From contig PKCN01000287.1 in the NCBI GenBank assembly GCA_002862205.1, forward strand, positions 1-34,651: 34,651 bases of DNA, given 5' to 3'. This stretch comes from Planctomycetaceae bacterium (lineage in GTDB: Bacteria > Planctomycetota > Planctomycetia > Pirellulales > Pirellulaceae). The notes beneath the pieces are model-generated. The model was not told the origin of the DNA. It saw only the letters and a list, made by a program, of their open reading frames with translations, and made no database searches. Made by a program: the position numbers and the translations under genes. The stretch's first letter is position 1; every line of letters begins with the position of its first letter. Shown piece after piece: positions 3,554-34,651 of this stretch.

Positions 3554-3651
3554 GCGAACGGTAACCAGCGAACGGTAACCAGCGAACGGTGACCAGCGAA
3601 CGGTAACCAGCGAACGGTAACCAGCAAACAGTAACCAGCAAACAGCAACTA
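3554..3651. repeat. 14-bp tandem array x7 starting at the stop codon of the isomerase gene
   Basis: Seven 14-bp units (consensus GCGAACGGTAACCA) occupy 3554-3651. Read on the minus strand, the first unit is TAGTTGCTGTTTGC, whose TAG is the stop codon of the isomerase gene; later units read TGGTTACCGTTCGC. The two units nearest the gene are the most diverged. Confidence 0.95.
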
Positions 3652-4587
3652 GCCTGCTTTGGTGGTCAGCTTTTTCGAGACGCTTTCCAGCAACGCCTTG
3701 CTTTTTCGGATCCCTTCCATTTCGCCAACTTTTCCACCTTCATATTCAATCCCCACGTATCCGTGGTAGTTGTGTTTTTCGCAGACGATACGCATCATCT
3801 TTTCGTAGTCAGTGTGGGTCTCATTTCCGTTGTCATCAAAGTCATGAGTTTTTGCGCTGACCGCTTTGGCAAACGGCATCAACTCATCAACGCCTTTGTA
3901 ACGATCGTAGATTTCAGGATCTTTGCCCCGCTTGATGTAAAAGTTGCCAAAGTCGGGTAGTGTGCCGCAATTTTCCATCCCGACCTTGGTGATCACGCCA
4001 GCCAGCCACGCCCCGTTGCTGCTCAAACCACCGTGGTTCTCGACAATCACGTTAAGCCCGTGTGGTTTGGCGTACTCACTTAAGCTTTGTAAGCCATCGG
4101 CAGCCAGTTTCTGTTGTTCTTCGTAGCTGCCACTGCTGCCAGCATTCACGCGAATGGAGTGACAGCCCAGTGTCTTTGCGGCGTCGACCCACTGGTGATG
4201 ATTTTCAACCGCCTTTTTGCGTTCCTGGTCCGAAGCAGCACCCAGTCTACCTTCGCCATCAACCATGATGAGAAGGCTCTTGACTCCCTCGTCATTGCAG
4301 CGTTGTTTCAGCTCCGCGAGGTACTTTTCATCTCTTGCCTTGTCCTTGAAAAACTGATTGACGTACTCCACCGCATCGATCCCAAATTCCCGTTTTGTGA
4401 TGCGGGGAAAATCGAGATTGGTCAGGTTCTTGGATTTATCGCGAAGTGTTCGATGCAGCGACCATTCGGCGAGGGAAATTTTGAAGGGAGCGTGGCCCTC
4501 GTGATGATCAGCAAATGAGAGGCTTGGTAAAGCGGTGGAGGCAGCGACGGAAGCTGCGGCGGTCTTGAGAAACTGACGTCGAAACAT
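3649..4587 (-). CDS. exported sugar phosphate isomerase/epimerase-like TIM-barrel protein
   Basis: The 312-aa product starts with a Tat-like signal ([20 protein letters not shown], cleavage probably near SFA-D). The rest matches the xylose isomerase-like TIM barrel (AP_endonuc_2): [10 protein letters not shown], the helix-rich middle, [41 protein letters not shown] and YVGIEYEGG. Glu, Asp, His and Glu in those last segments are the expected divalent-metal ligands of the family. It would isomerise or epimerise a sugar or sugar acid, probably outside the cytoplasmic membrane if the Tat signal works. It lies downstream of a sodium:solute symporter on the same strand, consistent with carbohydrate use, but the two are separated by 460 bp with a repeat array, so a tight operon is unlikely. 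Substrate unknown. Confidence 0.88.
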
Positions 4588-5046
4588 GGGTGAAGCGTTT
4601 CCTGAATGGAAGGTGAGAATGACGTGACGTAAACACAGTGAGATTTATCGGGTATGCCCCTCTGGCATTGTAACTCGTCCTGTGCCCAGGAGGAGAGAGG
4701 ACCAACCGTTGTATCCGAATTGTAACGTGGTTCACGTGCATTTTTGAATGGAATGGAGGCCTGCCTGCTTTCGAAACACAGGGCCGTTGAGTGTGCGAGG
4801 CCAGTTCAATGCTTGAGGAGCCAGATCAATGCTTGCGAGGCCAGTTCAATGCTTGAGGAGCCAGATCAATGCTTGAGGAGCCAGTTCAATGCTTGAGGAG
4901 CCAGTTCAATGCTTGAGGAGCCCGTTCAATGCTTGCGTTGGCTGTCTTGGTGGCAATCCTGTGTGCTGTCCTGATCGATTGGCACGCTTGCGACTGGAGT
5001 GGTGAAACCACCCTCCACCACGTTGCCTGATTCACACCCAGCCCAA
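4588..5046. other. intergenic region with minisatellite
   Basis: 459 bp separate the symporter and the isomerase on the minus strand. About 140 bp are the 20-bp array listed separately; the remaining 4588-4780 presumably carries the isomerase promoter, but I see no convincing -35/-10 pair. No RNA gene seen. Confidence 0.6.
4801..4940. repeat. 20-bp tandem array x7
   Basis: Seven contiguous 20-bp units with consensus CCAGTTCAATGCTTGAGGAG; variants are CCAGATC (units 2 and 4), GCGAGG (unit 2) and a diverged last unit. A further degraded unit may precede at 4781. The array begins about 107 bp beyond the symporter stop codon. Confidence 0.95.
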
Positions 5047-6717
5047 TCAATCATCCTGTGATTCTGTTTCGATGAGTTTTGGTGATGTGGGATCTGAGTT
5101 CGGTGGACCGTTTGGGTTGACAAGACGGCTGATGCAGAGGCCTGCGAGAAAGATGGTCATGGTGCCGACGACGATAGTCAGGTTGGTGTGGAGTGGGTTG
5201 CGAAGCATTTCTGGCAAGGCATCATTTTCGGGGGACAATGTCAGCCAGCCAATCACAACAACGCCAATCACAATCGCGATCAGACCGCTGACTGGGCTGG
5301 CACGTCGCGACAGAATCCCTAGCAGGAACAGTCCCAGCATTCCCCCAGAAAATACACCTTGAAGCAGCCACCACGCATCCAGAATACTCTTTTGACCGAT
5401 CAACAGAAGCGCCGTCATGGTACCGATGAAGCCAATGGCAATCGTTGCGATTCTGAGTACGTTCATGGCCTGCCGTTCTGTCACTTCAGGTTTGCAGTAG
5501 CGTTGGTACAAGTCTTTGAGGATGACAGTGGCCGATGAATTGAGTGATGTGTCGATGCTGCTCATTGCGGCAGCAAAAATGGCGGCAATCAAAAGTCCAG
5601 CAAGCCCGGGCGGAAGTTCTGTTGCAATGAAATGGGGCAGCACACGATCACCGATGTCGGATGCTTGCAGATTTGCTGCGTCGACAGAATTCTGGGTTGC
5701 TACTGTTTGCCGTACTTCCTCGAGCAAGCTCGGGTGCGTTTCATAGTAGGAGAACAATGCTGCACCAATGAGAAAGAACAGCAACGAAATGGGGACATAC
5801 ATGAACGCTCCGAGCCAGACCGCTCGTTTGGCTGCCTGTTCACTTGAGGCGGTGTGGTAGCGTTGCACAAAGCTCTGGTCGATTCCAAAATTGGTCAGGT
5901 TGATGAATAAACCAAACAGCAGCATGACCCATACCGTGCTCTGTGTGGGGTCGATGTTCCAGCTGCCAAGTTCCAGCTTGCCTGCATCGTTTGCGATCCT
6001 CCAAGCCTGTGTTGGTCCTTCGGGCATGCTGAAAACCAACATTCCGAAAATGACGATCGCTCCACCCATCAAGACGATGGACTGGACGACATCTGTCCAA
6101 ATCACTGCCTCAATGCCTCCCAGCAGGGTGTACAGAGTGACCAGCAATCCCGTGGCGATGATGATGGTTGTGACATCCCAGTCCGTCAGGGCATGCAACC
6201 CGATCGCCACGCCAAACATGATGGTTCCCACCCGCGCGATCTGTGTTAGCAGGTAGCACAGCATGGCGTAGGTTCGGGCCCACAAGCCAAAGCGATCCTC
6301 CAGGTGCTCGTAAGCCGAAATCTGACCGCGTTTGCGATAGAAAGGGACAAAATATCTGGCGGCAATCCATGCTGCCACAGGCAGGGAAAGCGTGAATAAA
6401 TAGCCGTTGAAATTTCCACCGTAAGCTTTGCCTGGATTGCCGAGAAAAGTATTGCTGCTCAGGTAGGTGCCGAAGATCGACATGCCGACAGCCCACCCGG
6501 GAAGCGAACCACCGGCCGCCATGAATTCATTGGAGGTTCCGCTTTTGCGAATGAACCAGCAGCCAAAGACAATCACCGAGGCGACATACAGCACCAGAAC
6601 AACTAGATCGGGGGTCGCTAATGTGATGGTGGGGTCTCCCCAAGGTGCTGAATACTGAATTTGGGATGGCTGTGGGATGGTAATGTAGGTCTTGGCTGCT
6701 TGTTTTTCCAATCCCAA
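5047..6717 (-). CDS. sodium:solute symporter (SSS family)
   Basis: The 556-aa protein has about 13 hydrophobic segments beginning with LVVLVLYVASVIVFGCWF. Family hallmarks include FMAAGGSLPGWAVGMSIFGTYLSSNTFLGNPGKAYGGN (early helices), the segment LLGGIEAVIWTDVVQSIVLMGG, and FAAAMSSIDTSLNSSATVILKDLY. SSS carriers use the sodium gradient to import sugars, carboxylates or similar solutes across the inner membrane. The start is uncertain: the coordinate given is a TTG, there is no ATG before the first membrane segment, and no Shine-Dalgarno is evident; an in-frame TAG lies about 14 codons upstream, so the N terminus cannot be much longer. A sugar substrate is guessed from the isomerase gene downstream. 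Confidence 0.9.
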   Translation of the reverse strand: MGLEKQAAKTYITIPQPSQIQYSAPWGDPTITLATPDLVVLVLYVASVIVFGCWFIRKSGTSNEFMAAGGSLPGWAVGMSIFGTYLSSNTFLGNPGKAYGGNFNGYLFTLSLPVAAWIAARYFVPFYRKRGQISAYEHLEDRFGLWARTYAMLCYLLTQIARVGTIMFGVAIGLHALTDWDVTTIIIATGLLVTLYTLLGGIEAVIWTDVVQSIVLMGGAIVIFGMLVFSMPEGPTQAWRIANDAGKLELGSWNIDPTQSTVWVMLLFGLFINLTNFGIDQSFVQRYHTASSEQAAKRAVWLGAFMYVPISLLFFLIGAALFSYYETHPSLLEEVRQTVATQNSVDAANLQASDIGDRVLPHFIATELPPGLAGLLIAAIFAAAMSSIDTSLNSSATVILKDLYQRYCKPEVTERQAMNVLRIATIAIGFIGTMTALLLIGQKSILDAWWLLQGVFSGGMLGLFLLGILSRRASPVSGLIAIVIGVVVIGWLTLSPENDALPEMLRNPLHTNLTIVVGTMTIFLAGLCISRLVNPNGPPNSDPTSPKLIETESQDD

Positions 6718-6880
6718 GTGGTTGGCGATGTGGGGTTCGGTTTCATGCAGCTGTCGCCCAGTTTTCTACTGCAGTCGTTTGGATTGTTGATGCCTGCTCA
6801 CACGGCGACAAGTTTGGGAGCTAAACTGTGTGCCCCGCCGTGCTGTTTCGCTCCCTCTCAATGAATAACCTGATCAAGTC

Positions 6881-7522
6881 ATGACGAAGATATTGTTTCT
6901 GATATTCTGTCTTTCATTGCCTGCCACGCTGCAGGCTGATTCGCCTCGAATCGTCTTCGAAGAAGATTTCGAAAAGGGTACGGCTCGTTGGGAAATTCTG
7001 GATCCTGAAAGTTGGCAGTTGAAAAAATCTGACAACGGTTCAGCGATCGAAATCACATCCCGAGGGAGTAAGTATAAGCCACCTGTCAGAAGTCCTGGGC
7101 ATCTTGCATTGATCAAGGATCTGAAGGTTGGCAGCTTTGATATCACCTTCAAGGTCCGTAGCACCAAGGATACTGGGAATCATCGTGACTGCTGTATCTT
7201 CTTCGGTTATCAGGATGATCAGCATTTCTATTACGTGCATCTGGGCGCCAAGCCTGATCCGCATAGCGGGCAGATCATGATCGTCAAAGAAGCGCCGCGT
7301 CTGGCCCTCACCAAAAATGAGAAATTGACGCCCTGGGATGACCAATGGCACACCGTGAAGGTCAGCCGAAATCTCGCAGACGGCACGATCAAAGTATACT
7401 TCGATGACATGACCAAGCCGCACATGGAAGTTGTCGATCGTACCTTCGGTGCAGGAAAAGTTGGCATTGGTTCGTTCGATGATCTCAACGCATTCGACGA
7501 TATCATGGTTCGCGAACACTGA
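6881..7522 (+). CDS. secreted concanavalin/LamG-like (DUF1080-like) domain protein
   Basis: The 213-aa product has an N-terminal signal peptide (MTKILFLIFCLSLPATLQA-DSP). The mature part is a beta-sandwich: FEEDFEKGTARWEI, SFDITFKVRSTKDTGNHRDCCIFFGYQDDQHFYYVHLG, WHTVKVSRNLADGTIKVYFDD and GKVGIGSFDDLNAFDDIMV, the pattern of planctomycete DUF1080/laminin G-like sugar-binding domains. No catalytic motif is recognised. It is divergent from the symporter across about 160 bp, so the two may share a control region. Probably periplasmic or secreted, binding or cleaving a glycan; the precise role is unknown. Confidence 0.82.
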   Translation: MTKILFLIFCLSLPATLQADSPRIVFEEDFEKGTARWEILDPESWQLKKSDNGSAIEITSRGSKYKPPVRSPGHLALIKDLKVGSFDITFKVRSTKDTGNHRDCCIFFGYQDDQHFYYVHLGAKPDPHSGQIMIVKEAPRLALTKNEKLTPWDDQWHTVKVSRNLADGTIKVYFDDMTKPHMEVVDRTFGAGKVGIGSFDDLNAFDDIMVREH

Positions 7523-7540
7523 AATTCAGTTGCATCGTGA

Positions 7541-7559
7541 AGGCTTGCTCATCAAGCCT
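7541..7559 (+). terminator. weak hairpin after the LamG-like gene
   Basis: AGGCTTG-CTCAT-CAAGCCT gives a 7-bp stem 18 bp beyond the stop codon. There is no following T-run, so termination is only possible, not shown. Confidence 0.3.
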
Positions 7560-7709: not shown

Positions 7710-8237
7710 ATGGATTCTATTTCGATCGAAAACGCCTGCCGGTTTTGTCCGCGGTGTGGCAATCAGGCTGAAGTCGCAGGCTGCGTGCCGTTTCGTTGCA
7801 CGCAGTGCGGGTTCGCCAATTTCTTTGGGCCCGTCGCTGCTGTGGGAGGGTTAGTGACCAATGAGCAGGGTGAATTGTTGCTGGTGCGACGTGCCCGCGA
7901 GCCCGGGAAAGGAAAGTGGGGATTGCCGGGCGGATTCGTTGATCGAAATGAAACGATCGAGCAGGCCTTGAGCAGGGAAGTGCTTGAAGAAACCAACTTA
8001 TGTGTCAAGGACGCCAGCTATCTGACATCCTTTCCAAATCTCTACGAATATGCCGGAGCGGTATCTCCGGTCATCGACCTGTTCTACCGCTGTGAGGTGG
8101 TGGACCGGGGAGCGATTCGATTGGCGGATGGTGAGTTGGACAGTTTCTTGTGGGTGAATCCCACTGATGAACATCTAGCCGAGATGGCATTTCCATCGAA
8201 TCGGCGGGCGATTGAACAGTGGTTGAACAGTGTTTGA
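7710..8237 (+). CDS. zinc-ribbon NUDIX hydrolase
   Basis: The 175-aa cytoplasmic protein starts with a zinc ribbon: Cys13-Pro-Arg-Cys16 and Cys30-Thr-Gln-Cys33. This is followed by a NUDIX fold, with the box at residues 75-97 (GGFVDRNETIEQALSREVLEETNL); the usual Gly near the end of the box is Asn96, while the R-E-x2-E-E metal-binding core is intact. NUDIX enzymes cleave nucleoside diphosphates linked to another moiety; the N-terminal ribbon resembles NudC-like and ADP-ribose/NADH pyrophosphatase relatives, but the substrate cannot be fixed. The last codons (EQWLNSV-stop) lie within two diverged units of the 11-bp array that follows, and the third unit supplies the TGA stop. Confidence 0.9.
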   Translation: MDSISIENACRFCPRCGNQAEVAGCVPFRCTQCGFANFFGPVAAVGGLVTNEQGELLLVRRAREPGKGKWGLPGGFVDRNETIEQALSREVLEETNLCVKDASYLTSFPNLYEYAGAVSPVIDLFYRCEVVDRGAIRLADGELDSFLWVNPTDEHLAEMAFPSNRRAIEQWLNSV

Positions 8238-8300
8238 GGAGTGGTTGAGGAGTGGTTGAGGAGTGGTTGAGGAGTGGTTGAGGAGTGGTTGAGGAGTGGT
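8213..8300. repeat. 11-bp tandem array x8 spanning the NUDIX stop codon
   Basis: Units are TGAACAGTGGT (8213), TGAACAGTGTT (8224), then six perfect TGAGGAGTGGT copies (8235-8300), followed by TGA. The first two units are coding; the third starts with the in-frame TGA stop at 8235. With an 11-bp period the TGA of successive units visits all three frames. Confidence 0.96.
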
Positions 8301-8404
8301 TGACTGGCTTGAGTGGCATCATTGCGTAAAGCTGGTTCGACAGGCAGAAGGGCCTTGTGAGGATTGACGGTCATTAAAGTTGAAGGCTCTTTGGGATTCG
8401 TTTG

Positions 8405-8638
8405 ATGTTAAGTCCCGCCGCCCGGTTTGCTTTCACTCTGCTTGAACTCGTGGAGATCATTGCCATCATTGGCGTGGCACTTGGGTTCAATCGCACTTGG
8501 GTTCAATCCTGGCAGGGTGGTGGGCAGTGTCAGGTTCCCTCAGACAGCGATGCGACGACCCGTGACTTCGCTTTGTTGCGCAGCTGCGAAAATGGAGGCT
8601 GCCCGGTAAGCATCGTTCAAGTCACTCATGTTACGTAG
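8405..8638 (+). pseudogene. probable prepilin/DUF1559-like N-terminal relic
   Basis: The start encodes MLSPAARFAFTLLELVEIIAIIGVALGF, which matches the type IV prepilin-like N terminus of planctomycete DUF1559 proteins (cleavage site then FTLxE and a hydrophobic helix). After about 25 codons similarity stops: a perfect 16-bp duplication (8477-8508) follows, then the frame runs into the 3' end of the convergent oxidoreductase gene. Full DUF1559 proteins are about 300 aa. I read it as a truncated, decaying copy; a very short real pseudopilin is the alternative. Confidence 0.5.
8477..8508. repeat. 16-bp perfect tandem duplication
   Basis: GCACTTGGGTTCAATC occurs twice head to tail, inside the pilin-like relic at the point where similarity to the pilin N terminus is lost. 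Confidence 0.95.
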
Positions 8639-9526: not shown

Positions 9527-10183
9527 AAAGACGTTGGCAAAGAGATTGTGGAAAACAGCGACAGGTTGTTCACAAAGATTTCGTCGGTTCAGGCCATCTT
9601 CTTCGCCCACTTCCTAAAATCCATGGCCTCATTGGATCCTCGCAGTGTCAGGCTGGTTCGGATTCCCGAAGTCCCTGATCCACAACAGTTTAGCTGCTCG
9701 GCGATGGGTTGGGACTATTGGCAATGGAACTTTTTAAAACCAGCTGGCCATGCCAGATCGTCTCGTTGCGTGCATTCCTCCACTTGTCCCCACCTGTGCC
9801 GTCCTTATACTCCCGCCAGCTTTCCCAGTTTACTTCGTTGTAATGCATGCAATTGAGTGCTTTCAAGCGACCTGGGAAGGCGTGCCATCTTTCATTTCAG
9901 CGTCGCGGGGATGAAGGGGGATGAAGGGGGATGAAGGGGGATAAGGAGCTGCGGTTTCGTTTCAGGGCCACAAGGAGACCCAAAGACGGGTCTGACCATT
10001 TGACTTTGTGGGACCGAACGCTGCGGTTCGAATTAGTGGGCGACAAAGAGGAGTTTGTCAGTTTCAGCGCGATCATGAGTTGTGGACCAACGCTGGCGTT
10101 TTCGTGTTGGAGCCGGAGCAGGTTTGATTGGTAAGTGGCTGATCTCGTGCTGATGCTAAACCTTTACATTGATGGAGCTATAG
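9527..10183. other. 657-bp intergenic region
   Basis: No supported gene. It holds a 10-bp tandem repeat (9911-9940) and one promoter-like pair, TTGTCC at 9784 and TATACT at 9806 with a 16-bp spacer, which could serve the thioredoxin-like gene but lies about 370 bp upstream. Open frames here have no signal, motif or plausible composition. Confidence 0.5.
9911..9946. repeat. 10-bp tandem array x3 plus partial
   Basis: Three units ATGAAGGGGG at 9911-9940 followed by the partial unit ATAAGG; preceded by a GGGG run at 9907. Confidence 0.9.
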
Positions 10184-11826: not shown

Positions 11827-11931
11827 GTCTAGAGTATGTCAGTTTGCAGACTACCTGAGTCAGCAGGGTGAAGCCCTCTGCTTGGGTCAGTTGTTTCGTC
11901 CACATGGAAGTCGGGGAACACGTCAGTGGCA

Positions 11932-12795
11932 ATGCGATCGGCCAATTCCGAAGAGCAGCGACCTATGAGGCGATTGCTGGGGCGTTTGATCAAAGCTCCC
12001 GCTGCATTTGCGGTGTTGTGGCCTGTGCTGTTGATCTTGGGCGGCTACGCCGCCTGGCACCGCTGGGGAGCCGCGCATGTGGCTGGTAAGTACAGCGGCA
12101 TTGACCCCACGCTCATTCAGGTCACGGAACCACCGGCGCACGTCCGAACGAATATTGTCAAAACGGTCTATCGTGATACAGCGATGGAAGGCCTTTCGAT
12201 TTTGGATCGGCAAGCCACTGCAAAAATCGCCTCTGCCTTTTCCATGCATCCGTGGGTCCGCAAGGTGATTGGCGTTCGCAAGCTTCCCGGTGGCCAGATC
12301 GATGTCAGGCTTGAATACCGTGCCCCTGTTGCCATGGTTCATGTTTATAAGCCCAACGATCCAGAGAATCGAAGTTATTTCTTTCCTGTCGATGGCGAGG
12401 GTGTGCTGTTGCCGGGTAACGAGTTTGCGGAAGCGGAAACCAGAAACTACATCTACATTGAGGTCCCTGATGTTTACACCAGTAATGCTGTGGGAACACC
12501 TTTTGGAGATGAATCTGTGGAAGCTGCTTCAGCCCTCGCGTTTGTGCTTGCGCCTTATCGTGAGCAGACGCAAATTCGCAGTATCGGAATTCATGGTGAT
12601 CCGCGACAGACGGAAGTCGTGCAAATGGAATTGACCATGCAATCAGGAGCACGGATGACCTGGGGGAGCCCTCCGGGGAACGAGGTTCCAGGTGAGCCGA
12701 CTGTGCAGATGAAACTGAAATCACTGCTCGCGGCTGACCGCCGTCAAGACGCAGATCTGCGGGTCGCCAGCCCTGCTCAGACGTTGCAGCGTTGA
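11932..12795 (+). CDS. ftsQ: FtsQ/DivIB-like cell division membrane protein
   Basis: About 287 aa from ATG 11932 (a GTG at 11926 is an alternative). Layout: short basic cytoplasmic tail (RPMRRLLGRLIKAP), one membrane helix (AAFAVLWPVLLILGGYAAW), a POTRA-like segment with the family pattern ASAFSMHPWVRKVIGVRKLPGGQIDVRLEYRAPVAMV, then the beta domain (YFFPVDGEGVLLPG ... GARMTWGSPPGN ... VQMKLKSLL). In other bacteria FtsQ bridges early and late divisome proteins and regulates septal peptidoglycan synthesis. Its position directly after murB fits the dcw gene order, but no ftsA or ftsZ follows; planctomycetes are known to lack ftsZ. Its stop codon is the first base triplet of a 16-bp tandem array. 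Confidence 0.75.
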   Translation: MRSANSEEQRPMRRLLGRLIKAPAAFAVLWPVLLILGGYAAWHRWGAAHVAGKYSGIDPTLIQVTEPPAHVRTNIVKTVYRDTAMEGLSILDRQATAKIASAFSMHPWVRKVIGVRKLPGGQIDVRLEYRAPVAMVHVYKPNDPENRSYFFPVDGEGVLLPGNEFAEAETRNYIYIEVPDVYTSNAVGTPFGDESVEAASALAFVLAPYREQTQIRSIGIHGDPRQTEVVQMELTMQSGARMTWGSPPGNEVPGEPTVQMKLKSLLAADRRQDADLRVASPAQTLQR

Positions 12796-12910
12796 TCGTG
12801 AAAACGCCTGATCGTGAAAGCAGTTGATCGTGAAAGCAGTTGATTGTGAAAGCAGTTGATTGTGAAAGCAGTTGATTGTGAAAGCAGTTGATCGTGAAAG
12901 CAGTTGATTG
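12793..12910. repeat. 16-bp tandem array x7 starting at the ftsQ-like stop codon
   Basis: Unit TGATCGTGAAAGCAGT or TGATTGTGAAAGCAGT repeats from 12793, the stop TGA itself being the first triplet; the first unit ends ACGCC instead of GCAGT. Seven full units reach 12904, then TGATTG. Each unit has a TGA and the period shifts frame. Confidence 0.96.
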
Positions 12911-19228: not shown

Positions 19229-19463
19229 TGCTGCTGCTTTCTAAGTGCTTTCACTTGGGGTCCCGTGCGGTTCCCCGTCACTTCATTCAATTGAAATGAC
19301 ATCCAACGTGCGGCCGAGCCGTTGGGTGAGGAACGCGGTTGTGAGGTTTGAAACGTTTGTAGTGCCAAGCGAGGGCCCGAAAGCACACCAGCTTCAGCGT
19401 TTTTGTCTCAATCCATCCAAAGATAGGCCGCAAATAAGCGGAAAGAAGGAAAACGTATTCGAG

Positions 19464-19503
19464 TTTCTGCAAAGTGTGTTTCTGTAATGTGTGTTTCTGC
19501 AAA
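19464..19503. repeat. 15-bp tandem repeat x2.7
   Basis: TTTCTGCAAAGTGTG, TTTCTGTAATGTGTG, TTTCTGCAAA in direct succession, in the gap upstream of cpaF. Confidence 0.88.
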
Positions 19504-19673
19504 GGTCAGGGCCGGCAGTCGGCTTTTAGCTTTGCTGCAGCAAGTCACCCGAGAGAAAGCGTTGTCTGAGACTCATTGGTGAAGATCGACTGTCGTTGGA
19601 GTGGACCGGTTGAGCCTGCGATAACGAGATGCATCGATACGATGCGGGCGCGGAGAAGTCGCTGCTGTGAACC

Positions 19674-19713
19674 AAAAGCAGACCGGCGCCTCCAATCGGA
19701 AGCACCGGCCTGC
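19674..19713 (-). terminator. intrinsic terminator of the two-gene secreted-protein operon
   Basis: On the minus strand a 16-bp stem (19713-19698 with 19693-19678, three G-U pairs, loop GATT) is followed directly by TTTT (19677-19674). It lies about 60 bp beyond the stop of the 129-aa gene. Confidence 0.8.
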
Positions 19714-19774
19714 TGCAATGAGTCGGCTGGTCGTGGGCAGGCCTACTTTGACTGTGACCTGACAGGAAACGTGA

Positions 19775-20164
19775 TTACCAAGGGCCGCGCACGTAGTAGG
19801 TACCGAATTGATCGGTGTGGCTGGGCCACCTTGGGGTGCCGTAAAATCTACCCTGAGCAACACCCGGGGAGTTGGCGCTACGTCCAAACTGATGGTGAAT
19901 CGGGTACATGAGATTCTGGCTCACGCCCCACGAGTAGGTTTGCCGCATGTGTGCGGTTGGTGGAACGATCAATGCCAGTGGTTGTCCGTACATTTGATTG
20001 TAGTAATTACCATGCCAAGGTCGGTTCATGGAAAAGTTGTAAGACCACACCTGGGCCATTCCGTAGGGATCGCCAGCAGTCGCGTTGGTTTGCGAGGCGG
20101 CGATGGAAGCGGTCACCAAGCCGACGGCGAGGATGATTCGATGGATCATGGTAGGCTCATTCAT
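19775..20164 (-). CDS. small secreted Tyr/Pro/Trp-rich protein, paralogue of upstream gene
   Basis: The 129-aa product (or 124 aa from the second Met) has a signal peptide, MIHRIILAVGLVTASIAASQTNATAG. The mature ~100 residues are rich in Tyr, Trp, Pro, Gly, Asn and His with no recognised domain: YNQMYGQPLALIVPP, then RQTYSWGVSQNLMYPIHHQFGR. By eye it aligns with the protein encoded just upstream (QMYLSPMPIPPNVGHTYYTYQPFNPHHMLYPHQNRFHR). It is second in a two-gene operon ended by a clear terminator. Probably a cell-surface or periplasmic structural or binding protein; function unknown. Confidence 0.82.
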   Translation of the reverse strand: MNEPTMIHRIILAVGLVTASIAASQTNATAGDPYGMAQVWSYNFSMNRPWHGNYYNQMYGQPLALIVPPTAHMRQTYSWGVSQNLMYPIHHQFGRSANSPGVAQGRFYGTPRWPSHTDQFGTYYVRGPW

Positions 20165-20227
20165 CAGGGGAGTGCTGGATCGGGTTTCAACGGTCAGGGT
20201 GGCTGGCTCGTTGCTGGTAGTGGGGAA

Positions 20228-20683
20228 CTAGCGAGGCATACGCAGGAAGTTCCAATAAACGTTGCTCGCTGTCTGGCGAACGGGTGGGTAATAGTAGGAA
20301 GCCCGAGTCCTATTCATGCCACGACCGCAGTCATAATGTCGGTGGAACCGATTTTGATGAGGGTACAGCATGTGGTGTGGGTTAAAGGGCTGGTAGGTGT
20401 AGTAGGTGTGTCCCACGTTTGGTGGAATCGGCATGGGGGACAAGTACATCTGGGCATTCGCTCGGTTGGCAGCGCCCTGAGTGTAGAAGTTGTAGAACAG
20501 GTCTGGCTGGCCGTAGCCCCGCTGAATTCCTGGTGCGACGTCCCCGACGTAGTGGTCGACGGTTGCCGAGGCGGGGACCTTTTCTGCGGTTTTTTTGGCA
20601 GGTTCGTCTGCCGACGCGCTGGCAGCGAATGTCATGCAGATGGCCAAGGCGACCGCGGAGTAGGAAAGCGTTCTGATTTTCAT
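20228..20683 (-). CDS. small secreted Tyr/Pro/His-rich protein, first of tandem pair
   Basis: Start set at ATG 20683, where a good signal peptide begins (MKIRTLSYSAVALAICMTF, cleavage near ASA-DEPAKK); upstream in-frame codons look noncoding. The 151-aa product has a Lys/Ala-rich linker, then a Tyr/Asn/Pro/His-rich domain (GYGQPDLFYNFYTQGAANRANAQMY, HMLYPHQNRFHRHYDCGRG, ASYYYPPVRQTASNVYWNFLRMP). No known family recognised. It is separated by 63 bp from its smaller paralogue and diverges from the topoisomerase genes. Confidence 0.82.
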   Translation of the reverse strand: MKIRTLSYSAVALAICMTFAASASADEPAKKTAEKVPASATVDHYVGDVAPGIQRGYGQPDLFYNFYTQGAANRANAQMYLSPMPIPPNVGHTYYTYQPFNPHHMLYPHQNRFHRHYDCGRGMNRTRASYYYPPVRQTASNVYWNFLRMPR

Positions 20684-21030
20684 AGGTTCGGCTCCACCGT
20701 GAACGTCGCCCGAGCGTGTCGACGGCTGAAATGGGTCGGAATCCAGCCGGTTGGCTGGCGATCGATCCCCGCTGGCTTTGGTGCCTCGAGGATGAAAATC
20801 CAAGCAACGGCAGCAAAAGTGGGAACAGATCCTGTTTTTAAGAGATTTCGGGTCAAAAACGGCTCTCAGTTGACCTTTGCCTCATTTGCCGCTTCGCTCG
20901 GCACGATCCTTGGGTTCGTTTTCACGGGTTTGATCGGTATAACCGGCTTCTGCATCAGTCGCTGTTCAATATGCTGTGATCGACTCGGATAGCGTTAACG
21001 GCATAAATTGCCTAGCTTCTGCAATGTTGT
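20684..21030. other. divergent intergenic region (347 bp)
   Basis: Separates the secreted pair (minus) from the topoisomerase genes (plus), so it should hold both promoters; I see no strong sigma-70 pair on either strand. No gene or RNA supported. Confidence 0.5.
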
Positions 21031-23586
21031 TTGGGTGAGCTGAACGCTGATCTCACGAAAAATCTAGCACCACCGGCAAGAAAAGGACCTTCTGGCGTGG
21101 CAAAACGTCGAACTCGCAGTAATTCCGGGCACAAGGCCGGGGCTTCTCAAGCTTCCACCAAACGAAAGTCTTCGGCCCGTAAAAAGGAAGAAACCGAATC
21201 GCTTTTTGATGTTCAGGATGCATCCATCGTCGTGGTTCCGTTGCGGCAGGCTGCTCAGGAGAAATACCTCAACTACTCGCTATCGGTCATCACCAGTCGA
21301 GCGTTGCCAGACGTTCGCGACGGTTTGAAGCCGGTACAGCGGCGAATTCTTTACACCATGAGCCAGCAGGGACTGAATTTCAGTTCCAAACATGTCAAAT
21401 GTGCGAAGGTGGTCGGTGATGTGATGGGACGTTTTCACCCTCACGGTGATAGTTCCATTTACGATGCTTTGGTAAGAATGGCGCAGCCGTTTTCGCTGCG
21501 GATGCCATTGGTCGACGGCAGTGGCAATTTTGGCAGCGTCGATGGAGACAATGCGGCGGCGATGCGTTACACCGAGTGTCGAATGACGGCACTTGCATCG
21601 GAGATGTTAAAAGACCTTGCCACCCGCACGGTTGCTTTTAAGCCTAACTATGACGGCAGCAAGGAAGAGCCGGTTGTTCTGCCAAGTCTGGTTCCCAATT
21701 TGCTGCTCAACGGTGCAACCGGGATTGCCGTGGGAATGGCCACGAACATTCCACCTCATAACCTGCGAGAAATCTGTAACGCGTTGCTGAAACTGTTGCA
21801 CAATCCTGAAATCAAGGGTTATCAACTCGTTGCTCACGATGCAATTCAGGGGCCCGACTTTCCCACCGCCGGGCAGGTCATCAACACCAAGGACGAGCTT
21901 CGGGAAATTTATGCCACTGGCCAGGGAACCATCAAGCTTCGCGGGACGACCAAGTTGGTGACCCAGAAGGGAGCCAAAATTTTGCAAATCACATCGATTC
22001 CATTCGGTGTCAATAAAGCTGCGATGGTCGAGCGTATTGCGGAAATCATTTTTAGCGGAAAGTTACCTCTGGTAACGGAAGTCCGAGATCTTTCGACCGA
22101 AGATATCCGAGTCGATCTTCTGCTGAAGAAGGGGACGGACGAAAAAAAGGTGCTCGCCTATCTCTTCAAGCACACCCAGTTGCAAAATAACTTCAATGTC
22201 AATTTGACCTGTCTCGTTCCCACCGAGAATCCCGAGGTCGGAGCTCCGAATCGGCTGAGTTTGAAGGAGATGCTGTGGCACTTTCTGCATTTCCGTTTGG
22301 AGGTGATTACGGAGCGTTTGACCAATGAATTGAAGGCACTTGAAAAACGCATTCACATTCTCAATGGTTTTGCGTTGATCTTTGACGCTCTTGATGAAAT
22401 CATCCGCATCATTCGAAAGAGTGACGGGAAAGCTGATGCTGCAAAAAAAATCATGCGGAAATTTCCCGCCGATGGGCGTGGCGACGGTTTGGACGAGGAG
22501 CAGACAGATGCCATTTTGGAACTGAAACTGTATCGCTTGGCGAGATTGGAAATCAATCTGATCCTTGATGAGCTCAAGGAGAAGAATCGGCGTGCTCGAC
22601 AAATCCGAAAACTGCTTGCCGAGGATACCAATGACACAAACTCCTCAGGTCGCTGGCAGATTGTCCGTCAGGAAATTGAGTCACTTGTGACCGATTATGG
22701 AAAAGACAGTGTTGGCAAACGACGTACACAGCTCACCACAGTGGAAGAAGAACCCGAGTACACAGCTGAAGACTTCATTGTTGCCGAGGACTGTCATGTC
22801 CTGATCACCAAAGATGGGTGGGTGAAGCGGCAAAAACAGATCGCGGATCCAGGCAAGAGTCGCTTGCGTCAAGGTGACAGTGTGTTGGATTGTGTTGCGG
22901 GAAGCACACGTGCAACGATTGGATTTTTCTCTTCATTGGGTGTCTGTTACACCGCCCGGATGATTGATATTCCCGCATCCACGGGGTTTGGCGAGCCGAT
23001 TCAGAAATTATTCAAAATGAAGGACGGAGAAAAAATTGTTACGGCGATTTCGTTTGATTCGCGAGTGATGGGCGATTTTCGGGAGGATCCCAAGAACTCT
23101 GAATATTGCCCTGAGTGTCATGCATTGGCTGCCTCTACCAATGGCTTTGCACTGCGATTCAGTTTTGAACCGTTCGCAGAAACTTCCACACGGAGCGGGC
23201 GGAGGTTTGCCAGAGTCACAGGGAACGCTTCTATCGTGAGTGTCGTGCCTGTTGATGGTAGCGAAAACCTGCTGGCCGTGTCGCGAGCCTGCCGAGCCAT
23301 GATCTGCGCTGTCGAAGAAATCAATTATCTCTCAGGTGCAGGGAAAGGCGTGACGTTGATTCGACTTGCTGCGGGAGATGAGTTGCTTGGCTTCAAAGCT
23401 TCCACCGGGGATCGAGATTTGTTGACGGTGATGACAAACCGAGGGGCAAAGAAAACAATCTCGACTGCCAAGTATCGGGTGACCTCGCGTGGTGGACGGG
23501 GCAATGAGATTCAAAAGAATGGGAAAATATCCGAAATTGTTGTGCTGCCGCCAAAGGCCCCGCCCCCGTTGGGGGAATCCTCTTGA
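21031..23586 (+). CDS. type IIA DNA topoisomerase subunit A (GyrA/ParC-like)
   Basis: The catalytic half is textbook: [64 protein letters not shown] and the active-site Tyr180 in [10 protein letters not shown] (counting from TTG 21031). It breaks and rejoins DNA as the A subunit of gyrase or topoisomerase IV. A basic N-terminal tail ([20 protein letters not shown]) precedes the fold. The start is uncertain: TTG 21031 or GTG 21097. The C-terminal domain (about 580-840) is beta-pinwheel-like; a GyrA-box-like SRGGRGN (819-825) sits near its end, not at its start as in gyrase. With a ParE-like B subunit 77 bp downstream, topoisomerase IV-type activity is somewhat favoured. Confidence 0.93.
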
Positions 23587-23663
23587 CCATTTGTTTATCC
23601 TTTATTTTTCCTGCATCAGCCTGTGTGGCTGAATACCTATCCAGCTGACGGAACGACCTCGAG

Positions 23664-25574
23664 ATGGCTGCAAAGAAACGATACGAAGGCGAAGACATCG
23701 TTGTGCTCGAAGGGCTTGAGCCTGTTCGTAAACGACCCGGTATGTACATCGGTGGGGTTGGCATGGCAGGGTTGCACCACCTGATTTGGGAGGTGGTAGA
23801 CAACTCCATTGATGAGGCCATGAATGGTCACGCCACCGAAATTACTGTCACTCTGCACAAGGATGGCCGCACCATCACGGTCTCAGACAATGGTCGTGGC
23901 ATTCCCGTTGATAAACACCCAAAAACCAAAAAATCCGCGTTGGAAACTGTGCTCACTGTGCTTCATGCTGGTGGTAAGTTTGATGGGAATAACTACAAGA
24001 CTGCAGGCGGACTGCATGGTGTTGGTGCATCTGTTGTTAACGCATTGAGTAAAGAACTTATCGCAGTCGTTCGACGTGGTGGTGTTCAGTATCGGATGGC
24101 GTTTTCCAAGGGCAAAGCAACTTCCAAATTGCAAAAACTCAAAGGCGCAGTGCGGGGCACGGGAACGACGATCAGCTTCACCCCCGACCCCACCATCTTT
24201 CCCAAAACCGAATTTGACTCCAACATGATCCGAGCCAGATTGGAAACAGCCAGCTTTCTGCATCGCGGTGTGAAGGTCATTTACAATGATGAAGTGAATA
24301 AAAAGAAGGAGACATTTTTTCACGAGCAGGGGATCGTTGACTATCTGGCCAAAGTGATCAAAGAACGAAATGCAAAACCGATTCATGAAACACCGTTCAC
24401 ATTGCGAAAAGAAGACGACTTTCGCATTGAATTGACTTTTCAATGGACTGAGTCGACCGATGAACATGTACGCAGCTATGTCAATGGGATTCCAACAGGA
24501 AGTGGTGGCACGCATGAAAATGGTTGCCGTGGTGCCTTGAATAAGGCTGTCAGGAACTACATTGACACACACAGCCTGACGCCAAGGGGAGTCAAACTCA
24601 CACTTGAGGATATTCGTGAGGGACTGATTGTCATTTTATCCGTGTTTATCGAAGATCCGCAGTTTCAGGGACAAACCAAGGATCGACTCAATAATCCCGA
24701 TGTACAGTCCGTTGTTGAAGCGGCGATTCGCCCTGCGATGGAGCAGTGGATGAATAACAATCGAAGTGTGGCCGACTCCATTGTTGCACGGATCATTGCC
24801 GCTGCCCGGGCTCGGGCTGCTTCGCGGGCTGCATCAGCTGCAGTGTCGAGAAAAGGAGGGTCCAAACGTACCATGCTGCCCGGGAAACTCAGTGACTGTG
24901 TTTCCGGTGGTAAGGGCGATTCAGAGATTTTCATTGTGGAAGGTGATTCGGCTGGTGGCAGTGCCAAGCAGGGGCGTAACCGAAACTACCAGGCGATTCT
25001 TCCGCTGCGTGGAAAAGTTTTGAATACAGAAAGTGCTACGCTGAAAAAGATTCTTGAAAACAAGGAAATCCAGGACCTTGTCGCCGCGCTGGGCTGCGGC
25101 ATTGGTCCCAATCTCAATCTTGCCGATCTGCGTTACGAACGAGTGATCCTGCTGGCAGATGCCGATTCAGATGGGCATCACATCACTACCCTGTTGTTGA
25201 CGTTCTTTTACCGGCACATGCCGGGTCTGATTGCAGCGGGGCGTTTGTATATCGGTGTCCCACCGTTGTATCGAATTGATTTGGGAAAGGAGACCTTCTG
25301 GGCGGCAGACGAAGCTGCCAGAGAAGAGGTGCTTGAACAGTACACCGGGCGAGCCAAGCCGGAGATCACCCGCTTCAAGGGTCTTGGTGAAATGATGCCC
25401 AAGGTGTTGTGGGATACCACCTTGGATCCAGAAAAACGCCGTATTCAGAAAGTCGAAATTGACGATCAATTGGAGACAGATCGAATCATCAGCGACCTGA
25501 TGGGACGTGACGCTTCGGCAAGGTTCCGTTTTATCATGGATCGGGCCGAGGATGCTGAGGCAATCGATGTTTGA
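23664..25574 (+). CDS. type IIA DNA topoisomerase subunit B (ParE/GyrB-like)
   Basis: The 636-aa ATPase subunit shows all GHKL and TOPRIM hallmarks: RKRPGMYIGGV, EVVDNSIDEAMNGHA (ATP-binding Glu/Asn), DNGRGIPVDKHPKT, GGLHGVGASVVNALS, EGDSAGGSAKQGRNRNYQAILPLRGKVLN (about 427), DADSDGHHI (about 498) and ITRFKGLGEMMPKVLWDTTLDP. DSDG and the PPLYRIDLGKE stretch resemble ParE more than GyrB, while TTLLLTFFYRHMP is GyrB-like, so the gyrase/topo IV label stays open. It forms an operon with the A subunit (A first, then B). It lacks the large TOPRIM insert of enterobacterial GyrB. A 13-bp repeat follows the stop by 16 bp. Confidence 0.93.
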   Translation: MAAKKRYEGEDIVVLEGLEPVRKRPGMYIGGVGMAGLHHLIWEVVDNSIDEAMNGHATEITVTLHKDGRTITVSDNGRGIPVDKHPKTKKSALETVLTVLHAGGKFDGNNYKTAGGLHGVGASVVNALSKELIAVVRRGGVQYRMAFSKGKATSKLQKLKGAVRGTGTTISFTPDPTIFPKTEFDSNMIRARLETASFLHRGVKVIYNDEVNKKKETFFHEQGIVDYLAKVIKERNAKPIHETPFTLRKEDDFRIELTFQWTESTDEHVRSYVNGIPTGSGGTHENGCRGALNKAVRNYIDTHSLTPRGVKLTLEDIREGLIVILSVFIEDPQFQGQTKDRLNNPDVQSVVEAAIRPAMEQWMNNNRSVADSIVARIIAAARARAASRAASAAVSRKGGSKRTMLPGKLSDCVSGGKGDSEIFIVEGDSAGGSAKQGRNRNYQAILPLRGKVLNTESATLKKILENKEIQDLVAALGCGIGPNLNLADLRYERVILLADADSDGHHITTLLLTFFYRHMPGLIAAGRLYIGVPPLYRIDLGKETFWAADEAAREEVLEQYTGRAKPEITRFKGLGEMMPKVLWDTTLDPEKRRIQKVEIDDQLETDRIISDLMGRDASARFRFIMDRAEDAEAIDV

Positions 25575-25590: not shown

Positions 25591-25626
25591 TTTACCAAGC
25601 TGATTTACCAAGCTGATTTACCAAGC
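25591..25626. repeat. 13-bp tandem repeat x2.8 downstream of the topoisomerase B gene
   Basis: TTTACCAAGCTGA, TTTACCAAGCTGA, TTTACCAAGC; it starts 16 bp after the TGA stop and is preceded by a related TTCAAGC. Confidence 0.92.
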
Positions 25627-25725
25627 CAGAATCTTCAATCATTCAGTCGGCTGAACATGACGTGTCCCGTTACGGAAATCAGTTGAAAGAACCTGCCGAT
25701 GGTGTGGTTTCAGACCCCGTGAATG

Positions 25726-32037: not shown

Positions 32038-32042
32038 TACAA

Positions 32043-32070
32043 AAACTGGTCGGCATTGGCCGACCAGTTT
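32043..32070. terminator. perfect 12-bp hairpin between convergent pheT and DUF1080 genes
   Basis: AAACTGGTCGGC-ATTG-GCCGACCAGTTT is a perfect 12-bp stem with a 4-nt loop, 6 bp beyond the pheT stop. On the minus strand it is followed by TTTTTG-like sequence, an intrinsic terminator for the DUF1080 gene; on plus it has only the stem's own TTT, so it may act in both directions, stronger on minus. Confidence 0.8.
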
Positions 32071-32104
32071 CATGTTCTTGTTCGCATTGTGTCTGCCGAT
32101 TCAA

Positions 32105-32935
32105 TCAGTCTTCAATCGGTGTTTCTTTTTTGCCATCGCGAATGAACGGTTTGCGGACCTGCTCACCACCGGCGGGTTGGAAGTTCCTGACCCAAATATT
32201 ACGGAAGCCAACTGGATTTCCGTGATCCTGAATCGAGATCGGTCCCGTGGGCGGATGCTGCGTGTAAGCGGGGGGCCGGTTGTAGGGTGTATCTCCTTTG
32301 AGCTCAAAGTGATTCAGAATAAGCACACCGTTGTGAATCGCTGTAATGTACGCGGGAGACACCAGTTTGCCGTCATCATCGAAACGTGGAGCCGTCCAGA
32401 AAATGTCGTAAGTATTCCATTGCCCGGGAGGACGCATTGCATTGACAGCGGGTGGTGTCTGTTTGTAAATAGCGCCCGCTTGTCCATCAAAGTAAGTTGG
32501 GTTGGCATAGGAATCGAGTACCTGGATTTCGTAACGATCCATCAGGAAAATACCGCTGTTGCCGCGACCTTGGCCAGAACCTTTGACGGGGACAGGAGCT
32601 GTCCATTCGACGTGAAGTTGGCAATCACCAAATGACTGTTTGGATATGATTTTCCCTTTTCCGGAATAAGCGACGCCATCTTTGACTTCCCACCGCTCAC
32701 CGTTTTTCCAGTCTTTCAGACTTTCACCATCAAATAAAACAATGGCATCTGAGGGTGGGGCAGAGTCAGTTTTGCCGGGAGTGACGATGCCAGGTTCTTT
32801 CCATTTGATACCGTTGAGGTATTCGCCGGCATTGGCCCAAGTAGTGGCCAAGATGATGCTGGCTGCGATGGCGAGTGCGAGTGGCTGCGAGAATTTAACC
32901 TGACGTTGCCGGGAAGACATCGATTTTTGAGACAT
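32105..32935 (-). CDS. exported DUF1080 (3-keto-disaccharide hydrolase-like) protein
   Basis: The 276-aa product has a signal segment (KFSQPLALAIAASIILATTWANA-GEY). The DUF1080 domain is clear: AIVLFDGESLKDWKNGERWEVKDGVAYSGKGKIISKQSFGDCQLHVEW, GRGNSGIFLMDRYEIQVLDSYAN, AGAIYKQTPPAVNAMRPPGQWNTYDIFW, and PTGPISIQDHGNPVGFRNIWVR near the C terminus. The family is a concanavalin-like fold, some members of which hydrolyse 3-keto-disaccharides; others only bind glycans. It probably acts in the periplasm on polysaccharide-derived sugars. It is convergent with pheT, with a hairpin between them, and has no operon partner in view. Confidence 0.93.
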   Translation of the reverse strand: MSQKSMSSRQRQVKFSQPLALAIAASIILATTWANAGEYLNGIKWKEPGIVTPGKTDSAPPSDAIVLFDGESLKDWKNGERWEVKDGVAYSGKGKIISKQSFGDCQLHVEWTAPVPVKGSGQGRGNSGIFLMDRYEIQVLDSYANPTYFDGQAGAIYKQTPPAVNAMRPPGQWNTYDIFWTAPRFDDDGKLVSPAYITAIHNGVLILNHFELKGDTPYNRPPAYTQHPPTGPISIQDHGNPVGFRNIWVRNFQPAGGEQVRKPFIRDGKKETPIED

Positions 32936-33201
32936 GGGTTGCTATCAGAGAGAGGAATGGGGGAAGCTGTTTCCGTCCCCAAGACGGAAATTTTGCTGAG
33001 GAGAATTATGATTCCTACGCTGGCGGCAATCAATCACGCCGTTTTCGAATCGAGTCAATGAAAGCCACTGGCTTACCACGCAAGCGGTGTTGAGGGCGGA
33101 TCATGAGGCTTGATCGGCAACATGCACTTCTTCATTTGGTGTGATTTTGCCGCCAAAGCCAGCATTGACGCCGAATCAGAAAAACTGCTATTCCACGCAG
33201 T

Positions 33202-34464
33202 ATGGATGTTGTTTCTCTCTGCCGAGTCGCCACAGTCGTTCTCTTGGCTGTTTCCTGCTGCCGCTTTGCGCGCGGACAGGAGTTATTGTCTCCCGGCCTT
33301 CGCGTGGCTGGGCAAGATATTTCGTTGCAACGGGTTCCGGGCAATATCGGAATGGCAGCGACGAAAAAGACCCAGCTCAATCCTGGTGAAACACAGGCTT
33401 GCGTCCTGCTGACCAATGACAACGTCCTGTTTGGTCAGGCACGACAATTGGGTGAGTTTGTCATTGTGACGACGGCAGCGGGCGGGGAAGTTCGCCTGCC
33501 GCGACTCAAAGTTGCTTGCTGGGCCGAGAATATTCGAGACCTCTATCAGTACCGTATTGATCAACGCGGAAAGCCTACTTTACGGCGTCACCTGCGGGAT
33601 GCACGCTGGTGTGTGCATTACGATCTTTACGATTTGGCAGCACGTGAATTGATTGCCGCTCATCGAATCGATCCGGATAATCACGAGGCAAATGCCTTGG
33701 AGAGCCAGTTACGGAATCTTGTCACTCCGCGAGCCGTATCGAAATCAGCTGCTACCAGAATCGGGTCAGGAAAAAATACCAGCTCCGTCGATGAAGGCAC
33801 TGCTGTTGCGCCTGCAGGTTACGACACTGAGGATTCACAAGCGTTTGATATCGATGCCTTCACGATTCGGCGATTTGCAAGTCATATTCAACCGATGCTG
33901 CTCAATCGATGCAGCGTTTGTCACCAGACGACGGTCAGATCTGTCAACAATGAACTTCCCAAACCCAAATGGCACTTGACCGTTCCAAGTGTGGGCTCAA
34001 GAGCATCCGCCTCCATCACTCGCAGTAACCTGCAGGCAATCATTTCCTACATCAATCAAGAATCGCCTGAAACCAGTCCACTCCTGGTGCTGGCCACGAC
34101 ACCGCATGGTGGCAGTCCTGCTGCGCTCAGTCAACGCAATACAAAAGCAATTCAATCACTTGGCCAGTGGGTGATGATGGCGGCAGCCAGTCTTGAAAAT
34201 GGTCAATCGATGAACGATGAAAAACGTGGTGAATCCGCAGGGAACAATCAAGACCAGGATAGTTCCAGTGCTCCAGACGTTTCTACCTTGCACAGAGCAT
34301 TGGAGCAGAGCGAGGGTCAATCCGCACCAGAATCGGTGGTGCTACCTGTCCAAGCTGCTATCGATCATGGGGCCAAATCAGGCCCACATCGCTTGCCACC
34401 TGTGTCGAATCCCTTCGATCCGGATCTTTTTAATCGCCGTTTTCATGCGGCAAAGTCAGACTGA
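33202..34464 (+). CDS. exported single-heme cytochrome c-like protein
   Basis: The 420-aa protein has a signal peptide (MDVVSLCRVATVVLLAVSCCRFARG-QEL). Residues ~45-175 form a domain with a beta-rich part (ETQACVLLTNDNVLFGQARQLGEFVIVTTAAGGEVRLPRLKVACW) then a helical TPR-like stretch (YDLAARELIAAHRIDPDNHEANALESQLRNL). Residues ~215-330 look like a planctomycete cytochrome c domain, with the heme motif Cys237-Ser-Val-Cys240-His241 in HIQPMLLNRCSVCHQTT. The C-terminal ~90 residues are low-complexity Ser/Gln/Glu-rich and end in NPFDPDLFNRRF. It may carry one covalent heme and take part in electron transfer outside the cytoplasmic membrane; no methionine axial ligand could be fixed with confidence. 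Confidence 0.8.
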   Translation: MDVVSLCRVATVVLLAVSCCRFARGQELLSPGLRVAGQDISLQRVPGNIGMAATKKTQLNPGETQACVLLTNDNVLFGQARQLGEFVIVTTAAGGEVRLPRLKVACWAENIRDLYQYRIDQRGKPTLRRHLRDARWCVHYDLYDLAARELIAAHRIDPDNHEANALESQLRNLVTPRAVSKSAATRIGSGKNTSSVDEGTAVAPAGYDTEDSQAFDIDAFTIRRFASHIQPMLLNRCSVCHQTTVRSVNNELPKPKWHLTVPSVGSRASASITRSNLQAIISYINQESPETSPLLVLATTPHGGSPAALSQRNTKAIQSLGQWVMMAAASLENGQSMNDEKRGESAGNNQDQDSSSAPDVSTLHRALEQSEGQSAPESVVLPVQAAIDHGAKSGPHRLPPVSNPFDPDLFNRRFHAAKSD

Positions 34465-34620
34465 TTCGTGCTCGTGGTACGGTCACTCGCGTTCTCTCTG
34501 CGTACCATGCGCTGTTGAATTCAAAACCGAATTCAACACTCCTTAAACGCTGAATCTTGATCTGCTTCGGGCTCGTTGCTGGCTATCTGAGTCGTCAGTG
34601 CATTGTCGTGTGGTTTCTGC

Positions 34621-34651
34621 GCTGATCAGGTAGACGCTGATCAGGTAGACG
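34621..34651. repeat. 15-bp tandem repeat cut by the window end
   Basis: GCTGATCAGGTAGAC occurs twice (34621-34635, 34636-34650) and a third unit starts at the last base. The full length lies outside the window. It is about 155 bp after the cytochrome-like gene. Confidence 0.85.

Follow-up and report, generated by a model that had tools for sequence, protein, structure and literature searches.

Short tandem arrays in a Planctomycetaceae genome: locally unique units and their placement relative to genes

The window analysed here is the whole of contig PKCN01000287.1 (C53 in the genome numbering; 34,651 bp) of the Planctomycetaceae bacterium assembly GCA_002862205.1, a source genome (G000) of 7.77 Mb in 451 contigs. 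For one of the window's proteins, the closest named records bear the labels Rhodopirellula, Rubripirellula or Planctomycetota, and the organism is accordingly treated as a planctomycete of this kind. The spacers and coding regions of the window carry short tandem arrays, whose head-to-tail units of about 10-100 bp place them among the minisatellites. These arrays are real, and the genome sample shows them to be common. They are probably locally born, fast-turning-over minisatellites, generated by slippage or template switching, amplified, and then sorted by purifying selection.

Arrays of the window and of the genome

The arrays were detected with Tandem Repeats Finder (TRF), overlapping rows being merged. 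TRF recovered all eight intergenic arrays listed in a preliminary description of this DNA and added a ninth, at 8477-8508 (16-bp unit, 2.0 copies). A 14-bp unit is repeated 6.4 times at 3554-3643, in a convergent spacer, and the array ends 5 bp short of the stop of a minus-strand gene (gene end 3649). The array at 8218-8303 (11-bp unit, 7.8 copies) starts inside a NUDIX gene (7710-8237) and crosses its stop at 8235-8237, and that at 12791-12908 (16-bp unit, 7.4 copies) starts 2 bp before the stop (12793-12795) of the gene at 11926-12795, its first unit holding this codon. These three arrays had been described as beginning exactly at a stop codon, which is not the case: two of them cross one and the third ends before it. 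The statement that one array starts 16 bp after a stop applies to 25591-25626 (13-bp unit, 2.8 copies), placed in a convergent spacer behind a gyrase-B-like gene (23664-25574). Four arrays lie more than 100 bp from any called stop. They are found at 4800-4935 (20-bp unit, 6.8 copies; tandem spacer), at 9907-9946 (10-bp unit, 4.1 copies; divergent spacer, at least 237 bp from both genes), at 19463-19504 (15-bp unit, 2.8 copies) and at 34620-34651 (15-bp unit, 2.1 copies; cut by the contig end). The orientation of the gene to the right of the 19463 array is uncertain: the caller gives minus-strand open reading frames at 19775-20683, competing with a plus-strand frame of 394 aa at 19808-20992, and none of them has a Pfam match.

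The coding arrays of the window are all in frame and on the plus strand. A Tex-like gene (domains Tex_YqgF, HHH and S1) contains 18-bp units at 1-93 (5.2 copies, at the contig start), 1688-1744 (3.2 copies) and 2809-2874 (3.7 copies). The earlier account of this gene, in which its three exact arrays were all of 18 bp, stands for these three; a fourth coding repeat, at 2323-2425, has a 30-bp unit (3.6 copies). The contig both starts and stops within tandem arrays, perhaps as a result of repeat-caused assembly breaks. In a relative, a run of N near 5800-6264 (L062, G017:C53) falls inside an 11-bp tandem array, so that an assembly gap is again located in a repeat. Contig ends are weak candidates for array hot spots, since 3 of the 21 termini carry an array and two of these three are the window's own. 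Upstream of the 25591 array, a gyrase/topoisomerase A-subunit gene (21031-23586) precedes the gyrase-B-like gene, the pair spanning 21031-25574.

The genome sample comprised the window and 80 further stretches (81 in all, 1,605,866 bp, 20.7% of the genome); it was non-random, long contigs being favoured. Arrays were kept with a TRF score of at least 50, a match of at least 80% and a unit of 7-60 bp. The sample holds 321 arrays, 92 coding and 229 intergenic, and intergenic ones occur in 69 of the 81 stretches. In the window arrays are slightly more frequent than in its genome (nine against 4.9 expected, P = 0.06). Under a stricter rule (at least four copies, unit of 10-200 bp) 83 arrays were counted in 1.606 Mb, or 51.7 per Mb. 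The same rule gave five arrays in 200 kb of a complete genome of the same genus (G003), one in 220 kb of four other genomes of the genus, and none in two single-contig genomes of the order but outside the family (200 kb), in other Planctomycetota (451 kb) or in other phyla (809 kb). Array abundance in near relatives is mixed, with 8-60 kb sampled per genome.

The units have no common sequence. Among the sampled arrays whose coding overlap is 30% or less (n = 225), no unit recurs as a circular word on either strand (225 of 225 distinct), in agreement with the earlier proposal of local generation without a common unit. Arrays share 214 9-mers (155 ± 21 by chance), any one 9-mer occurring in at most three arrays. 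A dispersed repeat element (REP, MITE or IS footprint) is ruled out by this lack of a common unit. The 3554 array has one match in its own genome, partial (about 61-69 bases, 80%), at C75, which is itself an array of a similar unit. Many arrays show less than 100% match between copies. Units divisible by three make up 89/92 of the coding arrays and 78/229 of the intergenic ones, confirming the claim that coding units are multiples of three and intergenic ones unconstrained. Base A is at 0.218 in units and 0.239 in intergenic DNA, stop triplets are not enriched in units (0.0320 against 0.0327), and the 4-mer bias is weak (TGCA 1.7-fold; TTTA, TTAA and ATAT depleted). The folding energy per nucleotide is -0.195 in 223 arrays and the same in 446 length-matched random intergenic controls (P = 0.71). 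Terminators or structured RNA are not supported as the identity of the arrays, given this absence of excess folding and of any Rfam match.

Turnover, births and unit length

Synteny with the window extends to six relatives, in G002 and G020 for part of its length, and to three more records, with identities that are mostly 73-83%. Most breaks in the alignments fall at intergenic spacers, array-bearing ones among them. Six of the eight arrays could be compared by TRF and by local alignment of the unit, and none is shared in 33 orthologous gaps: those at 3554, 12791 and 19463 are absent from five relatives each, and those at 4800, 8218 and 25591 from six. As none of the six is shared at about 80% identity, each arose locally. 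A different array (TRF score at least 44) occupies 10 of the 33 gaps; two of the ten lie in a long gap (gap C) that holds an additional gene, and these two are possibly coding. When the unit was aligned locally, P fell below 0.01 in one gap, that of the 19463 array in G017, and was 0.03 in G008. The G017 match is a single copy of a word similar to the 19463 unit, at the alignable edge, and to judge from the sequence is probably the precursor of the array.

Two spacers of the window have features of their own. The spacer at 8237-8540 is about 0.3 kb long here and corresponds to a gap of 1,326-1,465 bp in six relatives, with an extra gene called there in G005 and G008. A remnant near 8400-8470 resembles by eye a prepilin N-terminal motif, and the gene may have been lost or shortened in this lineage. 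To the right of the 19463 array, a terminator-like hairpin at 19677-19714 (38 bp, 17 pairs) is kept nearly letter for letter in G005, G008 and G010 and altered in G017, within a spacer that is largely unalignable. At gathering thresholds Rfam has no match for this hairpin or elsewhere in the window.

Births of tandem duplications were found at a few sites between close genomes. Two contigs of one metagenome-assembled genome (MAG; G005, contigs C33 and C51) align over 10.14 kb at 99.37%, with 46 mismatches and two indels, one of them a tandem duplication of 16 bp within a spacer. The outgroup G002, aligned by eye, has one copy, which polarises the duplication as a gain. A 19-bp unit is present in four copies in a G005 spacer and in one copy in G008, where the single-copy sequence has two GTGAT words at a distance of 19 bp, as expected of a sequence from which slippage could start. 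In G010 an 18-bp block beside the conserved hairpin is doubled relative to G005. The copy-number difference between close strains is one event, from one copy to two, in 10.14 kb of one MAG and at a site other than the window's arrays; inside the G000 sample no redundant contigs longer than 300 bp at 93% were available for such a comparison. The two G005 contigs (L057, L058) are overlapping and near-identical, apparently from two strains, and most of their single-nucleotide differences fall in one short tract. Between G008 and G005 (L055 and L057), tracts at 93-94% within an 85% average may reflect recombination between species.

Exact intergenic tandem duplications with a unit of at least 9 bp number 160 in the source genome, with a median unit of 15 bp and an interquartile range of 14-17; none occurs in the Markov control, one first-order sequence of 197,871 bases. 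Short units are in excess too, with 378 at 5-8 bp and about 268 expected from the length-scaled control. The related-genome set (n = 40, median 14.5) has a distribution not significantly different from that of the source genome (Kolmogorov-Smirnov P = 0.30, units of at least 10 bp). In that set the 10.1-kb overlap between L057 and L058 was counted once, which takes the number at 9-12 bp from 14 to 13, and the overlapping L116-L119 were excluded. For coding duplications in the source genome the counts are 24 at 9 bp, 6 at 12, 17 at 15, 11 at 18 and 8 at 21. In the control from other phyla, six of the eight duplications that are not a multiple of three are heptamer repeats of one locus (L151). 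At clean two-copy duplications, microhomology of 3-6 bp is present in 14/46 cases in G000 and 7/20 in the genus set, for a chance level of 5.6% at an assumed match rate of 0.26. No quantity tighter than the unit length itself (unit minus or plus microhomology) was found.

Placement relative to genes and stop codons

For the placement analysis the 229 intergenic arrays were re-placed at random on the sample under the same coding-overlap limit (300 rounds). The strongest placement effect is avoidance of gene starts: two arrays overlap a 5' end (27.7 ± 5.0 expected) and 26 lie within 50 bp of a start (60.0 ± 7.0 expected). Within 50 bp of a stop there are 94 arrays (54.7 ± 6.5 expected), most of them between convergent genes, and 28 overlap a 3' end (27.2 ± 4.6 expected). 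The preliminary description had arrays repeatedly placed at gene 3' ends and anchored to stop codons; an excess near stops is indeed present, but overlap with the 3' end itself is at chance and the anchoring is not supported.

Arrays of convergent spacers in the first sample (n = 39) lead to the same view. Nine of them overlap a stop and 22 lie within 20 bp of one, where random re-placement of each within its own spacer gives 13.2 and 22.2, and no single-base spike at the stop was seen in the histogram of their offsets. When any convergent spacer was allowed, the expectation for the same 22 arrays fell to 16.4 ± 3.1; this closeness to stops arises because the convergent spacers that bear arrays are short. 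The overlap count at chance and the random placement within the same spacer indicate that the stop codon is no anchor.

Array density differs between spacer types: convergent ones hold 1.93 per kb, tandem ones 0.90 and divergent ones 0.50, the last with 43 arrays in all. The convergent excess remains when both flanking genes are required to score at least 25 or at least 40. Coding arrays are distributed over gene quintiles, from start to stop, as 24, 16, 14, 11 and 27.

Origin of the arrays and comparison with known systems

A history in four steps would account for most of these results. A segment of about 10-24 bp, here mostly 13-17 bp, would be duplicated head to tail at an apparently arbitrary site, an event that comparison of genomes shows at a few sites. 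Many births would use a short direct repeat of 3-6 bp at the edges, as in slipped-strand mispairing or template switching, which is partly shown; others would proceed with little or no microhomology. From two copies onward, renewed slippage or unequal exchange would amplify the array, up to about 14 copies, and later erase it, as the copy numbers and the near-identical units suggest. Finally, selection would remove the harmful products, to judge from the statistics: frame-breaking units are nearly missing in genes and arrays nearly missing at gene starts. The arrays that survive would then be those of spacers, chiefly 3' of genes and most of all where two genes converge. No special part for the stop codon and no function of the arrays would be needed.

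A number of results weigh against this history of slippage and selection. Promoter avoidance fails to explain all of the placement, because an excess is left near stops and in convergent spacers. Under a null in which the 150 bp around starts are closed to arrays, 67.8 would fall within 50 bp of a stop (94 observed) and 36.0 would overlap one (28 observed). With 250 bp upstream of starts excluded, the densities are still 1.93 per kb in convergent, 1.15 in tandem and 0.75 in divergent spacers. Relative to the stop-side half of tandem spacers, convergent spacers of at most 400 bp are denser in arrays by a factor of 2.36 (P = 8e-5). A 3'-side effect, weaker and without an anchor, may exist beside the 5' depletion; either tandem spacers are more constrained along their full length, or births are commoner between convergent genes. 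The unit lengths form a hump, 19 duplications at 9-12 bp against 91 at 13-16 and none at 45-60, where simple length-decaying slippage predicts otherwise. The related-genome set has no hump of its own (13 at 9-12 against 15 at 13-16), so the hump at 13-17 bp is clear in the source genome only. Microhomology is 0-1 bp in 16/46 (G000) and 11/20 (genus set) of the clean duplications, and at least 8 bp in 12/46 (G000), perhaps as the remains of a third copy. Two bases (GC) of the 16-bp G005 duplication fit neither flank exactly, and the strain-level comparison rests on this single pair of contigs. The genes come from an in-house dicodon caller, with approximate starts and some short genes missed, and the gene ends depend on the same caller; a thioredoxin-like gene near G005:C33:11563-11967, seen by DNA match, is absent from its output. 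Lastly, the repair genes surveyed are ordinary and none marks the array-rich genomes, which leaves the abundance unaccounted for.

The repair survey covered 40 genomes of the order. The Ku domain (PF02735) was found in 0/22 genomes of the same genus and 0/3 others of the family, several of which are incomplete drafts, and in 6/15 of the remaining genomes of the order (6/40 in all, every one outside the family). RecJ and the PolA 5' nuclease domain were found in 40/40 genomes, MutS and exonuclease VII each in 38/40. With presence so nearly universal, there is no support for tracing the arrays to a loss of PolA 5' nuclease, MutS, RecJ or exonuclease VII. An SbcD domain match is uninformative, as it was obtained in 0/40 genomes, array-poor ones included. 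A second, shorter MutS-like protein (G000:C92:3425-3973; open frame of 665 aa) occurs beside MutS in 22/22 genomes of the genus and, elsewhere in the order, in a part of the genomes only.

The convergent excess invites a transcriptional explanation, in which collisions, positive supercoiling and stalled complexes between convergent genes raise the birth rate and selection acts as a second filter. Convergent spacers up to 400 bp are the densest (2.65 arrays per kb, against 0.86 in tandem and 0.51 in divergent ones), and both the advantage over stop-side tandem halves and its survival under strict flanking-gene scores fit this explanation. However, convergent spacers are also the least constrained and tandem ones include operon spacers, so that weaker selection predicts the same direction, and coding arrays accumulate at both gene ends rather than at the 3' end alone. 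A raised birth rate between convergent genes is possible but on balance unlikely. A bolder version combines this excess with the hump: a Ku-independent duplication process with a built-in step of about 15 bp, and not simple length-decaying slippage, would fire preferentially where convergent transcription meets, and the minisatellites would record collision sites. The step might reflect the size of a displaced flap, of an excision patch or of a polymerase complex. This proposal is doubtful, the missing hump of the related-genome set having lowered its standing.

Non-homologous end joining of staggered breaks by Ku/LigD, with duplication by fill-in, would yield sized units near 15 bp, births without microhomology and unmatched bases such as the two in the G005 event, but it is very improbable in a genus and family where Ku was not found and with microhomology above chance. 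The excess of arrays near stops, and the closer approach of convergent arrays to them than random positions in any convergent spacer, could be read as a process at stop codons or transcription termination that seeds arrays. Chance-level overlap, the absence of a spike, random placement within the same spacer, the arrays of divergent spacers and units not enriched in stop triplets make such seeding very hard to credit. The same 3'-side and convergent placement might be expected of a selected role at transcript ends, in termination, RNA stability or protein binding. Yet the arrays form no sequence family, fold no more than controls and are not shared in any orthologous gap, and the one strongly conserved spacer hairpin, at 19677-19714, is not an array; beyond the placement itself nothing was found to support this role, which is highly unlikely. 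Local birth by slippage or template switching, followed by selection, is thus retained as the probable origin, although it accounts for neither the high array number of the source genome nor the hump of its unit lengths.

The case illustrates that mutation and tolerance can be the main source of features whose position looks striking, repeats at gene ends being an example. It also offers a lineage in which minisatellites arise so often that comparison of closely related genomes can catch their birth. Both the hump and the convergent excess can be measured and give clues to minisatellite origin, which is hard to study since births are rarely seen; the sized birth, like the convergent excess, deserves to be tested. 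The arrays could furthermore serve as strain markers. Variable-number tandem repeat (VNTR), or minisatellite, typing loci of bacteria have units of about 10-20 bp or more, vary in copy number and are often intergenic. Compared with such loci the arrays described here are far denser, and their polymorphism is shown in one strain pair.

Within a limited literature and set of search terms, no earlier report of a unit-length hump or of a convergent excess in planctomycetes was found, and the consulted portions of PMC4060949, PMC6461901 and PMC12699852 contain no planctomycete tandem-repeat result. The preliminary description could name no fitting system; close precedents are nevertheless available in the intergenic tandem-repeat variants of Planctomycetota (PMC9426551) and in the tandem repeats of Borg elements (PMC9879509). 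In lake Planctomycetota studied by long reads, noncoding deletions within populations often fall at intergenic tandem repeats, and slippage was proposed (PMC9426551). The phylum is the same, but the organisms are freshwater ones, and the portion of that study consulted gives no unit lengths, placement or birth analysis. Prokaryote satellites, with units of at least 10 bp and at least four copies, are many of them unique and locally born; Table 1 of that survey lists 4.06 per Mb for Rhodopirellula baltica and 23 for the densest bacterial replicon (PMC6749651). The 51.7 per Mb obtained here are to be read against these values with the reservation that the two rules are similar but not identical.

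Borg elements are archaeal and extrachromosomal, and their tandem repeats have unique units of recent independent origin; coding units are divisible by three, intergenic ones in 14-38%, and the repeats can begin in a gene end and terminate contigs (PMC9879509). The Borg repeats are A-enriched with perfect copies, whereas here A is not in excess, many arrays are imperfect and the host is a bacterial genome of 7.8 Mb. The placement test against gene ends belongs to the present analysis and is not among the Borg results in the consulted portion of PMC9879509. Contigs that end in arrays are a likeness within the window and only weakly so genome-wide. With the Borg rule (at least 50 nt and three units), 35/35 coding arrays and 30/93 intergenic ones have units divisible by three. 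As far as the Borg results consulted extend, the two systems further share a unique unit per locus, intergenic and genic occurrence, flanking partial repeats, copy variation and the ability to start in a gene end (PMC9879509).

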